Source: Sulfurimonas crateris (GTDB lineage Bacteria > Campylobacterota > Campylobacteria > Campylobacterales > Sulfurimonadaceae). Taken from it: a DNA stretch of 64,000 nt. The stretch is from the NCBI RefSeq assembly GCF_005217605.1, contig NZ_SZPX01000002.1, forward strand, positions 124,001 through 188,000, written 5' to 3'. The position numbers were made by a program, and so were the translations under genes. Below, one piece after another: positions 51,045 to 54,857 of the stretch; position 1 is the first letter of the stretch; the number at the start of each line of letters is the position of its first letter. Below the pieces are notes generated by a model. That model searched no databases, was not told the origin of the DNA, and saw only the letters and a program-made list of their open reading frames with translations.

Positions 51045-51809
51045 TTAAACCACCCTCTGCTTTATATTACTAGAAGCCACAAAAGATGCCAATTTTTGTA
51101 TAAACTCATTTGGATTGGTATCTGCTATCTCTTGAGCCAGTATCTTGTCTGCTCCGTCGCCTAGAATCTTCTTAAAGACCGTTTTTATCTCTTCGATATC
51201 GCCTTTGTTCTCTAACCTTCTTCTAAGACCGATAACGTTTAGTCCTTTTATTGTGGCTTTGTTTCCCTCGACCAGCATAAAAGGAGGAATGTCCGAAGCT
51301 ACCACAGATGCTCCGCCTATCATAACACCCGTTCCTATCTTGTTGTTAGCCTCTACTGTGCTAAGTCCGCCGATAATAACGCGCTCGTCGCATTTTACAT
51401 TCTCATAAAGTCTTACGGCATTTGTAACGATACAAAAATCACCAAGTTCAACCCCGCTTAGGATCTGTACATAACCCATAATGAAACTGTTGGCACCAAT
51501 GGTTACTTTTCTGTTTTCTTCATCTACGCTCTCTTGAGCGCCTATTTGAGCAAACTCTCTCACATGAGTTTTCTCGCCTATAGTTATCTCTGAATCTTCA
51601 CATCCGATAACCGCAAAGCTGAAGATCTTTACATTTTCATCTACTTGAAGCTTCCCTTTTAAAATGACATTTGACTCTAACGTGCATCCTGCTTTTAGTT
51701 CAACATCTCTGCCAATGAAGGAAAATGGACCTATCTTGACATCAGGGGCTATTTTCGCACCTTCTTCTATAACTACCGTTGGGTGAATATTTGCTTTTGT
51801 CTCTGCCAT
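51045..51809 (-). CDS. LpxA-like hexapeptide acyltransferase lacking active-site histidines
   Basis: A 254-residue left-handed beta-helix protein aligned to LpxA along its length, including LVEGNKATIKGLNVIGLRRR and the C-terminal helices. An ungapped alignment to E. coli LpxA (recalled sequence) between the IGANSFIM and GGLSTV segments puts Q115 at His122, S118 at catalytic His125, N137 at His144 and E153 at His160. It therefore cannot use the canonical LpxA mechanism. It is last in the lpxB-gnnB-gnnA transcript and overlaps gnnA by one base. It may act on a 3-amino sugar by another mechanism, bind without catalysis, or be decaying; a normal LpxA probably lies elsewhere. Confidence 0.8.
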   Translation of the reverse strand: MAETKANIHPTVVIEEGAKIAPDVKIGPFSFIGRDVELKAGCTLESNVILKGKLQVDENVKIFSFAVIGCEDSEITIGEKTHVREFAQIGAQESVDEENRKVTIGANSFIMGYVQILSGVELGDFCIVTNAVRLYENVKCDERVIIGGLSTVEANNKIGTGVMIGGASVVASDIPPFMLVEGNKATIKGLNVIGLRRRLENKGDIEEIKTVFKKILGDGADKILAQEIADTNPNEFIQKLASFVASSNIKQRVV

Positions 51810-52717
51810 TATTTGCTCGCGATCTCTAGAGTGATTATGCTGTCGTGTACGGTTGCCAGTGAGCCGCTATTGCCTGTGTGCAGGTAGTTTATAAACGCTT
51901 CAAGCTCATCTTGGAGAGCATTGCTTCTGTTTACAAAGCAGCTCTTTGTTATAAAGGAGTTTGGATTTATATTTATGCGCTCTGTAAGGGTTTGAGAGAT
52001 AAGGTCCGCTTCAAAATATTTTATCTTGCTATCCTCATCCACTCTGCACGCCAGAGAGATAGTTCTTTTTCTGTATGGAGTGAGCCAATTCGTAGATATG
52101 TCACCGATAACCTGACCCTCCAGCTCAAAGGCGAGAATGGCGTTATCTTCATGCGTCTTGTGGATCTTTTGAGATTTAAATACCGCGCTGTGGATAATGT
52201 CTCTTTTTGTTATAAACCTTATCAGGTCGCTGTCGTGGACTGAGAGGTCGGTGAGAATTCCAACATCCGCTATACGCTCTGGAAAAGAGCCGCTGCGAGT
52301 AATTGAGATGGATAGTATCTCATGGTCCGCAATTTCGTTTATAAGAGATTTTACAACGGGGTTGTATCTCTCAATATGTCCGACACAGCTTTTTATGCCG
52401 TTTTCTTCTACTGCTTTAAGTATCTCTTTGGCATCTTCTACACTTGAAGCTGCAGGCTTCTCTATAAAGATGTCCACTTTGCGCGCGGCACATTTTAGAG
52501 CAGCATCTTTATGTAAAAAAGTAGGAGTTACGATAATGACGGCATCAGGTTTGGCATTATCAAGCATCGTCTCTAGATCATAGTAAAAAGGCTCCTCGAA
52601 ATCGCCGTTTTTTACTACGTCGCATAGTCCGACGATCTCTGCACCCTCTATCTTTTTAAGGGTGTTGTAGTGGTTTCTGCCCATTGCTCCAAGCCCTAGA
52701 ATTGCAACTCTTTTCAA
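51809..52717 (-). CDS. gnnA: Gfo/Idh/MocA sugar dehydrogenase, GnnA-like
   Basis: NAD-dependent oxidoreductase of 302 residues. Rossmann start [17 protein letters not shown], then IFIEKPAAS with the catalytic lysine, VGHIERYNP and [13 protein letters not shown]. Next to a DegT aminotransferase and between lpxB and an LpxA-like gene, it matches GnnA, which oxidises the 3''-hydroxyl of UDP-GlcNAc in the route to 3-amino (GlcN3N) lipid A. A WbpB-like role on a related sugar is the alternative. Confidence 0.75.
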
Positions 52718-52720
52718 TCT

Positions 52721-53812
52721 TTAACCTTTAATAGCGCGGACTACAAAGTCCTGCTCCGCTTCACTGAGATATGCGCTCATAGGAAGCGACATTATCTGTT
52801 TTGAGACAAGCTCGCTGATCGGAAAATCTCCCTCAGAGTACCCAAGATGCTCAAATGCCTCTTGAAGATGAAGAGGAACAGGATAGTGAACTGCGGTAGG
52901 TATGCCTTGTTCACCAAGTTTAGCGATCATCTCTTCTCTCTCTTGAACTCTAATTGAGTACTGTGCATAAACACTTCTGTTTCCCTCAGCGATCTTTGGC
53001 GTAATGACATCGGCATCTTCAAGCAGGTCGCTGTATCTTGTGCCTATGTGATCACGAAGCTCTACCTCTTTGTCAAAATGCTTCAGTTTTACATCTAAAA
53101 TAGCCGCCTGAACCGCATCAAGACGACCGTTAATACCTATATACTTATGCTTATATCTCTCATTTTGACCATGGTTTAGAAGCATTCTCATCTTCTCTGC
53201 CAGTTCATCGTCATTTGTGAAGATCGCTCCGCCGTCGCCGTAAGCGCCAAGCGGTTTAGATGGAAAGAAGCTTGTGCATCCTATAGTTGAGAGGTTGCAC
53301 GATCTTTTGCCTCTGTATGTTGCGCCAAAACTCTGGCATGCGTCCTCTATGACAGGAAGCTCATACTTCGCGGCTATCTCGTTGATAGCATCCATATCTG
53401 CACACTGTCCGTAAAGTGAGACCGGCATGATAGCTCTTGTTCTATCGGTTATGTATGACTCTATTTTTGTCGCATCAATATTGTAGCTCTGCTCATCAAT
53501 ATCAACAAAAACGCTCTTTGCGCCAAGTAGTGCAATGACCTCAGCCGTAGAGATAAAGGTAAAAGGAGTAGTGATAACTTCATCGCCCGCTCCAACGCCA
53601 AGCGCCATAAGTGCCAATAATAGAGCATCCGTTCCGCTGCTGCACCCTATAGCATGCTTAGAGCCCGTATATGCCGCAAGATTTCTCTCTAGAGAGTTTA
53701 GCTTCTCTCCGCCTATAAATTGCGCTGAAGCGAAAACCTCTAAGACCTCTTTGTCTATCTCATCTTTATATGCTTGATACTGCGCTTGTAAATCTATAAA
53801 ATTAATCTTCAT
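52721..53812 (-). CDS. gnnB: DegT-family UDP-sugar aminotransferase, GnnB-like
   Basis: PLP enzyme of 363 residues expected to transaminate the 3-keto sugar made by GnnA, giving UDP-GlcNAc3N. Family marks are the N-terminal INFIDLQAQYQAYKDEID, CSSGTDALLLAL, IEDACQSFGATYRG, the Schiff-base lysine K186 in SFFPSKPLGAYGDGG and the C-terminal GIPTAVHYPVPLHLQEAF. Its ATG lies inside the end of lpxB (11-base overlap), and gnnA follows by three bases. WbpE-like activity on UDP-GlcNAcA is the alternative. Confidence 0.78.
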   Translation of the reverse strand: MKINFIDLQAQYQAYKDEIDKEVLEVFASAQFIGGEKLNSLERNLAAYTGSKHAIGCSSGTDALLLALMALGVGAGDEVITTPFTFISTAEVIALLGAKSVFVDIDEQSYNIDATKIESYITDRTRAIMPVSLYGQCADMDAINEIAAKYELPVIEDACQSFGATYRGKRSCNLSTIGCTSFFPSKPLGAYGDGGAIFTNDDELAEKMRMLLNHGQNERYKHKYIGINGRLDAVQAAILDVKLKHFDKEVELRDHIGTRYSDLLEDADVITPKIAEGNRSVYAQYSIRVQEREEMIAKLGEQGIPTAVHYPVPLHLQEAFEHLGYSEGDFPISELVSKQIMSLPMSAYLSEAEQDFVVRAIKG

Positions 53813-54857
53813 CTCTGTCCTCTATAATTTCTGCTACTCGCTTTGAGCTGCCGTGCACAAGGTACTCTCTTAGTGCTTTTGAGTCACTTAAAAACCTACT
53901 TCTGTCATACTCTTTGTATGCTTGAAGCAGGTTTTTGGCGGTTACATCTTTTTGTATAAACTCCGGATGCAGTGCCCTGTTCTTAAACTTAGAAAACATT
54001 ATATTTGCCAGCCCGATATACTCCAGTTTTACAAGAGAGCTTGCAATAAAATAATCAACCGGTTTGGCAATGTATGTCAACACGAAAGGTATCCCGATAA
54101 GTGATGCCTCCAAGGTTGCCGTTCCGCTGCATATAAATGCAAAGTCGGCATCTCTAAGTGCAGTATGCGCGTCATTAGCCGTTTTAAAACCCAAAAGGCT
54201 ACCATAAACTTCTTTTATATCTTCTTTAGAGAAGTGTTTTGGAACTATAACCGTCGCTTCTACATCAAGCTCTTTTTGAACCTCTCTAAAGATTGGCATA
54301 AGTTTGCTAATCTCGCCCCTTCTGCTTCCGGGCATAAAGACAACCTTTTTTACTTCACTCTCTAGAGACTCTTTAAATTCGGTTATCTGGTCTAAAAGAG
54401 GGTGTCCGACATACTCTATGGGGGCATCTTTGGAGTAGTACTCTCTCTCAAAAGGGAGGATGGAAGCCAGACGGTCTATCGTCTTCTCTAAAACTGGAAT
54501 TCTTTTTGGCTTCCATGCCCAAGCCTGTGGGAGGATGTAGTAGATTATCTCTTTGTTGGGGTACTTTTTTTTGATCTTTTTTGCAAGCGGGAGGTTAAAT
54601 CCGGAGGAGTCGATAAGAAGCACCTTGTCAGCCTCACTTGCGAGCTTTAGCATATCGTTGTTAAGTTTTAAAAAGAACCTCAGTTTTTTGATCGCATCTA
54701 CAAAGCCCATTATCGCCAAGCTTCTGAGGTCAATTATGCTCTCTCCAAGCTCTTTGTCAAATATGCCGATAAATTCTGTCGTCTGGCTCAACTCTTTTTT
54801 AAGAGACTTAAGATGAACGTTTGCCGAGTGCTCTAGCGCGCTAACTAATATTTTCAT
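53802..54857 (-). CDS. lpxB: Lipid A disaccharide synthase
   Basis: GT19 glycosyltransferase joining lipid X to UDP-diacylglucosamine. Typical segments are YYILPQAWAWKPKRIP, ILPFEREYY, YVGHPLLDQ, MPGSRRGEI and FAFICSGTATLEASLIGIPFVLTYIAKPVDYF. The usual N-terminal GEASGD is LEHSAN here; the C. jejuni enzyme has a similar variant, so this is a lineage trait rather than a defect. It overlaps the cytochrome gene by four bases and gnnB by 11. Confidence 0.93.
   Translation of the reverse strand: MKILVSALEHSANVHLKSLKKELSQTTEFIGIFDKELGESIIDLRSLAIMGFVDAIKKLRFFLKLNNDMLKLASEADKVLLIDSSGFNLPLAKKIKKKYPNKEIIYYILPQAWAWKPKRIPVLEKTIDRLASILPFEREYYSKDAPIEYVGHPLLDQITEFKESLESEVKKVVFMPGSRRGEISKLMPIFREVQKELDVEATVIVPKHFSKEDIKEVYGSLLGFKTANDAHTALRDADFAFICSGTATLEASLIGIPFVLTYIAKPVDYFIASSLVKLEYIGLANIMFSKFKNRALHPEFIQKDVTAKNLLQAYKEYDRSRFLSDSKALREYLVHGSSKRVAEIIEDRDED

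Follow-up and report, generated by a model that had tools for sequence, protein, structure and literature searches.

Can an LpxA homologue that has lost all four active-site histidines still serve lipid A synthesis, and if so, in what role? Lipid A synthesis begins with LpxA, which is regarded as a homotrimer whose histidine base is conserved. H125 is this base, and H122, H144 and H160 are reported to be involved in substrate binding (PMC6408518). The window (the whole stretch analysed, 64,000 nucleotides of Sulfurimonas crateris contig NZ_SZPX01000002.1) encodes such a homologue, here called lpxA2, in a cluster with the following genes.

51045..51809, minus strand: lpxA2, His-less LpxA paralogue of 254 aa (open reading frame and homology)
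51809..52717, minus strand: gnnA-like Gfo/Idh/MocA oxidoreductase, UDP-GlcNAc 3-dehydrogenase-like (below the NCBIfam cut-off; putative function)
52721..53812, minus strand: gnnB-like DegT/DnrJ aminotransferase (putative function)
53802..54857, minus strand: lpxB, lipid-A-disaccharide synthase (TIGR00215, 274.7 bits vs. a cut-off of 190.25), upstream in the cluster lpxB-gnnB-gnnA-lpxA2

On the minus strand the order is cytochrome c, lpxB, gnnB-like, gnnA-like and lpxA2, with lpxA2 last and adjoined by a convergent dsbD-like gene (the cytochrome c and dsbD-like labels are presumptive, assigned by us from the sequences). The ATG of lpxA2 at 51809 has one base in common with the stop codon of the gnnA-like gene. 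The top NCBIfam family of the gnnA-like oxidoreductase is UDP-GlcNAc 3-dehydrogenase (NF040723, 190.3 bits vs. a cut-off of 450), and the gnnB-like protein belongs to the DegT family, with all 25 NCBIfam matches shown falling short of their cut-offs; judged by sequence, the two are putative GnnA and GnnB. In Acidithiobacillus the GlcN3N precursor is the product of GnnA and GnnB, and loss of gnnA/gnnB in C. jejuni is reported to raise TLR4 activation (PMC8036547).

The original prediction held that the helix core and C-terminal signature are kept, and both the predicted structure and domain searches agree. The LpxA C-terminal domain PF13720 scores 55.3 bits in LpxA2 (cut-off 24.5); the protein stays below both NCBIfam LpxA equivalogs (192.1 bits against a cut-off of 231.05, and 191.7 against 226). 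In a phmmer search of the PDB, LpxA structures match nearly the full length of the protein (best 6oss, E = 8.7e-38). The AlphaFold2 model from 66 aligned sequences has a pLDDT of 94.9, and the 21 best-ranked entries in a structure search with it are LpxA, the closest solved chains being those of C. jejuni LpxA (3r0s; Z 31.9, 2.0 Å over 242). LpxD (Z up to 26.6) and QdtC (3fs8; Z 25.2, 1.6 Å over 186) follow; the QdtC match, obtained with no canonical LpxA control beside it, says little because other helix acyltransferases share this fold. A first model (16 rows, pLDDT 75.8), which we take to be wrong-handed, was discarded, since it lay ~12 Å rmsd from LpxAs and at 2.6 Å from pectate lyase and other beta-solenoids.

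For the catalytic positions we used alignments with the PDB LpxAs 6oss, 3r0s and 1lxa, and an alignment of 55 lpxA2 paralogues with 102 canonical LpxAs. Identical proteins were collapsed, six short lpxA2 pieces (L018, L135, L145, L146, L148, L149) were left out of the paralogue counts, and one canonical row with an internal stop (L175) was left out of the 55 + 102 alignment. The replacement of the four active-site histidines read from the window alone (Q115 for H122, S118 for H125, N137 for H144 and E153 for H160) recurs in the PDB alignments, the 55 + 102 alignment and smaller ones. The accompanying claim that the protein aligns without gaps fails, as 55/55 paralogues lack a stretch of ~9-10 residues following G69 (E. 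coli N72-Q73-D74-L75-K76...). Three segments of the gene are set out below.

51351..51467, minus strand: altered catalytic stretch, Q115 (H122) to E153 (H160), from alignments
51600..51605, minus strand: position of the missing substrate loop, at codons G69 and C70 (Q73-D74-L75-K76 region in E. coli), gap in 55/55
51216..51269, minus strand: retained UDP-side motif EGNKATIKGLNVIGLRRR (N191=N198, R197=R204, R198=R205), from alignments

The altered stretch also holds S118 (H125), G119 (D126), E136 (G143) and N137 (H144); changes of the window protein beyond the four histidines are D126 to G119, G143 to E136, Q161 to A154 and F162 to N155. Also gone from lpxA2 is the C-terminal R-G motif, which we tentatively equate with R258-G259 of E. 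coli, whose aligned row stopped at 244. Canonical LpxAs have all four histidines in 102/102 rows and D126 in 97/102, whereas the H125-D126 pair occurs in 0/55 lpxA2 proteins. Among these 55, column 125 holds nine residue types and never His (S 28, G 11, P 5, F 4, N 3, and A, C, D and I one each), column 126 is always G, column 122 is Q in 51 and R in 4, column 143 never has G (E 50, A 3, D 2), column 144 never has His (N 45, D 5, K 3, G 2), and column 160 is E in 44, His in 1 and another residue in 10. A shifted equivalent of His125 was sought in the window protein and none was found, its only histidines being H9 and H82; among the 55 paralogues, His near the lost sites is rare (column 124 in one, H160 in one, column 142 in three). 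H82 (codon 51564-51566, minus strand) sits outside the classical catalytic segments and is His in 47/55 lpxA2, where canonical LpxA has mostly K, T or I.

On the UDP side, N198 and R204 are kept in 55/55 lpxA2 and R205 in 52/55, and M170, G173 and E. coli N137 are kept in 55/55. The lpxA2 protein resembles the LpxAs of E. coli (1lxa) and C. jejuni (3r0s) in its whole-length fold, PF13720, N198/R204/R205 and the M170/G173 ruler, but these enzymes, unlike lpxA2, have the His125-Asp126 dyad, H122, H144, H160 (kept in 1/55 lpxA2), the Q73-D74-K76 loop, G143 and the C-terminal R-G.

A search for a second, His-containing lpxA was proposed with the original prediction, and the source genome (2.21 Mb, 11 contigs) has one: its two PF13720 matches are lpxA2 and a canonical LpxA with all four histidines, in the order fabZ-lpxA-clpX. 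We sampled 60 genomes of the genus and 298 of the phylum (26 of them from its own family), and a canonical lpxA is present in 16/16 lpxA2 genomes of the genus sample. The copy in one of them (G004, locus L175) has one in-frame TAA, either genuine or an assembly artefact, in a frame that is otherwise open; this genome also has lpxA2. The possibility that lpxA2 is the sole LpxA is ruled out by the canonical copies in the source genome and the genus sample, save for the TAA in G004.

In a quick tree of 74 LpxAs, the 25 lpxA2 rows make up one side of a branch (SH-aLRT 100, stem 0.97). Of the 14 listed pairs that involve the window gene, 13 have a computable dS and give dN/dS values of 0.060-0.086; seven further pairs give 0.021-0.128, so that all 20 finite pairs fall within 0.021-0.128. 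In many pairs dS is ≥1 and the ratios are thus rough. The gene is under purifying selection and, as first argued from its intact frame, is not a random dead gene. Given the four histidines in 102/102 canonical LpxAs and the low dN/dS, the change to the state with none of the four goes beyond chance.

The presence of lpxA2 is tied to gnnA. In the genus sample (n = 60) lpxA2 occurs in 16 genomes and gnnA in 17, with 16 common to both; in the seventeenth (G044), gnnA lies at a contig end and is cut. The lpxA2 matches of this sample have 64-100% identity, the next full-length matches being at 40%. In the phylum sample, gnnA occurs in 8 of the 26 own-family genomes and the same 8 have lpxA2. The sampled family total is 23 genomes with gnnA and 22 with lpxA2, the 23rd being interrupted by a contig end, and lpxA2 is present at every complete gnnA locus seen in the Sulfurimonas family. 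In a wider contig scan the best 79 loci were listed (Sulfurimonas, Sulfuricurvum, Campylobacterales and others), and His-less LpxAs may occur beyond these. Over both collections there are at least 75 lpxA2 loci (some genomes appear twice), with gnnA upstream on the same strand in 72, within 20 nt of lpxA2 in 71/72 and at 1.7 kb in L136. Of the three loci where no gnnA was seen, two (L148, L149) start inside lpxA2, and L140 has ~800 bases upstream that hold no gnnA. That the His-less clade tracks gnnA, a relationship raised with the original prediction, therefore stands within its family (genus and phylum samples, 72/75 loci).

Several loci depart from the common arrangement. The interval between gnnA and lpxA2 in L136 (L136:4301-6000), the only gap >100 nt among the 72, holds a frame that we read as glutathione peroxidase-like and a long frame on the opposite strand. 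Relatives scored as gnn- have an lpxB locus that lacks both gnnA and lpxA2, with an MscS-like gene after lpxB in G039. Two genomes (G054 and G031; L226, L227) have by lpxB a shortened gnnB-like gene, missing ~11 residues before the LDAVQAA segment of the window's gnnB, and no gnnA or lpxA2; this gene looks like a relict. In G036 (L238) there is a seemingly full gnnB-like gene, but gnnA gave no match at 1e-40 and LpxA none whatever. Beyond the family, gnnA is matched at E 1e-40 in 34 genomes, and an LpxA sought near gnnA in 24 fetched loci (8-14 kb) was absent from 23. One locus outside the family (G191, L062:4214-10638) reads lpxB-lpxA(a)-gnnB-gnnA-fabZ-lpxA(b)-clpX and encodes two four-His LpxAs, of which lpxA(a) keeps the histidines but has S74 and G76 in its substrate loop.

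The pocket of LpxA lies between subunits, with uracil contacts from monomer A, GlcNAc/catalytic contacts from monomer B and diphosphate contacts from both (PMC7072397). The face lists were taken from this source, with P. aeruginosa numbers shifted by +4 and E. coli 'Glu201' taken to mean G201; the E. coli list was extended by H122 and H160, which are contacts in P. aeruginosa. Site rates were estimated with IQ-TREE (LG+R4) separately for the 55 lpxA2 rows and 85 Campylobacterota canonical rows, leaving out 17 canonical rows from non-Campylobacterota loci.

Loss of the site in lpxA2 is one-sided: its own GlcNAc/catalytic face is lost, while the face that holds uridine, pyrophosphate and acyl chain is kept. 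In canonical LpxA both faces are slow (median relative rates ~0.09). In lpxA2 the UDP/acyl-A face is slow (median 0.085, p = 6e-6 vs. the rest), whereas the catalytic/acyl-B face evolves about as fast as the remaining sites (0.83 vs. 0.85, p = 0.96). On the full lists, the canonical residue is found in ≥90% of lpxA2 proteins at 8/14 A-face sites and 0/14 B-face sites. Among 68 sites that are slow in canonical LpxA, the majority residue is kept at 8/10 UDP-face sites and 30/47 other sites; at the same class of sites on the catalytic face (D126 added) it is kept at 0/11, with 2 deleted. The median lpxA2 rates at the 68 sites are 0.05 (A), 1.05 (B) and 0.39 (other), where A differs from B at p = 0.001 and B from the other sites only at p = 0.036. 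No examined site of the catalytic/GlcNAc face carries the canonical majority residue in the 55 lpxA2 proteins, and most evolve at about the average rate, with the H125, H160, Q161, A142 and T140 positions above average (1.05-1.49). Four catalytic-side positions are constrained (Q115 at 0.09, G119 at 0.11, N137 at 0.44 and E136 at 0.49); relaxation of the catalytic side is thus general but incomplete.

Of the two options first put forward for this protein, a new acyltransferase mechanism and a non-catalytic partner, the partner fits the one-sided conservation better; the new mechanism is possible but weakened, because position 125 and several sugar-contact positions vary freely. A frozen A face with a relaxed B face is what would be expected if LpxA2 lends its UDP/acyl face to an intact neighbour. 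Were LpxA2 the only subunit of an enzyme, the residues that position the attacking atom of the sugar should be constrained, and most of those examined are not. Canonical LpxA, found in all lpxA2 genomes of the genus sample (with the stop in G004), is the candidate neighbour. We infer that LpxA2 is not an LpxA-type catalyst alone. Our leading, still tentative, explanation is that LpxA2 is a conserved 'half-site' LpxA, most likely lending its UDP face to canonical LpxA in a mixed trimer for a 3-amino sugar. LpxA2 would pair with canonical LpxA and set its UDP/acyl-ruler face against the catalytic face of the latter; changes that are fixed or nearly fixed (T129, V132, F109, I145, R198) lie on or near the lent face. 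Such a trimer may adapt the opening step of lipid A synthesis to the UDP-GlcNAc3N expected from GnnA/GnnB, or couple that step to those enzymes. It is possible, and we hold this part more loosely, that the four-His catalytic face of LpxA and a specialised UDP/acyl-ruler face of LpxA2 form a composite site for the GnnA/GnnB sugar.

Some observations sit less well with a partner. The four constrained catalytic-side positions would be needless in a pure bystander, the UDP-face sites E. coli N137, G155, G173 and G201 may be frozen for structural reasons, and two LpxAs of Segatella copri are reported to be modelled as preferring homotrimers (PMC12643348). As seen from sequences and a model of the monomer, the mixed trimer is nevertheless the most likely candidate.

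Canonical LpxA was also compared by gnn status. Its tree requires gnn status to change 7 times, with 4 or more of the changes on supported branches, and the 4 supported independent pairs are too few for significance; raw differences by gnn status are many, and the tree-based test lacks power. Among the sites listed, the best co-variation lead is Ala at position 151; it accompanies gnn+ in 3.0/4 pairs on average. Loss of K76 as a general marker of 3-amino-sugar LpxAs is ruled out, as many gnn+ genomes keep K76 (5/5 in family f8, 2/2 in f6, G274 in f7 and 21/21 of f1 in the alignment). In f3, S76 is found in 9/9 genomes examined, whether or not they have gnnA matches at 1e-40. In f10, G76 occurs in 8/8 gnn+ genomes examined (of 9) and K76 in 6/7 gnn- genomes examined, the seventh (G231) reading PQARD. 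Across the f10 loci (L210-L212, L256-L267) the LpxA type follows gnn status and the catalytic-segment sequences differ, with L211 matching Sulfurospirillum diekertiae L151; it is as if lpxA had been swapped together with the pathway.

A serious rival to the mixed trimer, though one that we consider doubtful, is that LpxA2 itself N-acylates UDP-GlcNAc3N without a protein base, in the manner of QdtC. By analogy, the retained face would hold UDP and acyl chain, the free 3-amine would attack the thioester and the leaving sulfur would take the proton. The kept UDP and acyl-ruler residues suit such an enzyme, as do the tie to gnnA/gnnB-like genes (this genomic context being the sole pointer to the substrate), the conserved catalytic-side amides Q115 (51/55) and N137 (45/55), and the conserved H82 (47/55), which may or may not belong to the pocket. 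It is harder to reconcile with the above-average rates at the H125, H160, Q161, A142 and T140 positions, with Glu in 50/55 at Gly143, which we take to be the oxyanion residue, or with the loss of the substrate loop and the R258-type residue. Moreover, in other gnn+ Campylobacterota the canonical LpxA has all four histidines, so the 3-amine alone does not make them dispensable. QdtC, of the same fold class, is likewise a left-handed beta-helix trimer that acts on a 3-amino sugar; a mechanism without a protein base was proposed for it, and its candidate-base mutants are reported to be only reduced (PMC2943079). It ranks after LpxA and LpxD among the solved folds, its structural score being lower than that of LpxA; it shares 20% identity and uses acetyl-CoA and a dTDP sugar. 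ApmA is a further precedent (PMC7885111).

A role of LpxA2 as a homotrimer that binds UDP-sugars and serves GnnA, GnnB or LpxB as a scaffold or sensor, with no transfer activity, is quite unlikely. The frozen UDP face, the relaxed catalytic face and the position in the lpxB-gnnB-gnnA-lpxA2 cluster would all agree with this role, but it gives no reason for the ruler residues M170 and G173 at 55/55, and UDP-sugar binding is itself putative. A decaying duplicate is highly improbable: lpxA2 branches are four to five times the canonical LpxA length (two genome pairs) and some short frames do not run off the fetched DNA (L146 within its locus; the contig-start pieces L148 and L149), but the selection test contradicts decay, there are 55 distinct frames of ≥200 aa, and gnnA and lpxA2 are missing together, not piecemeal.

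For the mixed trimer, there is a precedent, as to architecture alone, in plant gamma-CA, which we take to be of the same fold class as LpxA2. In the gamma-CA heterotrimer of plant complex I, which is unrelated in function, an interface site lies in a mixed trimer with one subunit, CA2L, that lacks two of its three site histidines (PMC7447434). Labp of Cronobacter binds LpxA and about doubles its activity; unlike lpxA2, it is not called an LpxA homologue or tied to gnn genes in the consulted part of that report (PMC5770445). Capnocytophaga canimorsus, which has gnnA/gnnB and whose lipid A is a GlcN3N-GlcN hybrid, carries an lpxA' besides lpxA and can be likened to the lpxA2 genomes in gene content (PMC3342949). 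Segatella copri also has a second lpxA, but both of its copies are stated to retain catalytic residues (PMC12643348); further second LpxAs are published from Psychrobacter (PMC4557000) and Geobacter (PMC3087551). Among titles and abstract openings, in a search that subscription papers mostly fell outside, no His-less LpxA is named; at the same level there is no homologous specificity subunit of LpxA, the Labp activator being published.

What is new here is the one-sidedness of the active-site loss. Contrasting both faces of an interface site is a method of general use for separating half-site partners from new enzymes. If the mixed trimer is true, LpxA2 would act as a specificity subunit of LpxA and be its homologue. 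A paralogue that is under selection, tied to a cluster and stripped of its catalytic face would demonstrate either that the enzyme can be a mixed assembly including a specificity subunit or that the LpxA fold is capable of base-free amine acylation, and either outcome bears on how Campylobacterota make 3-amino lipid A.
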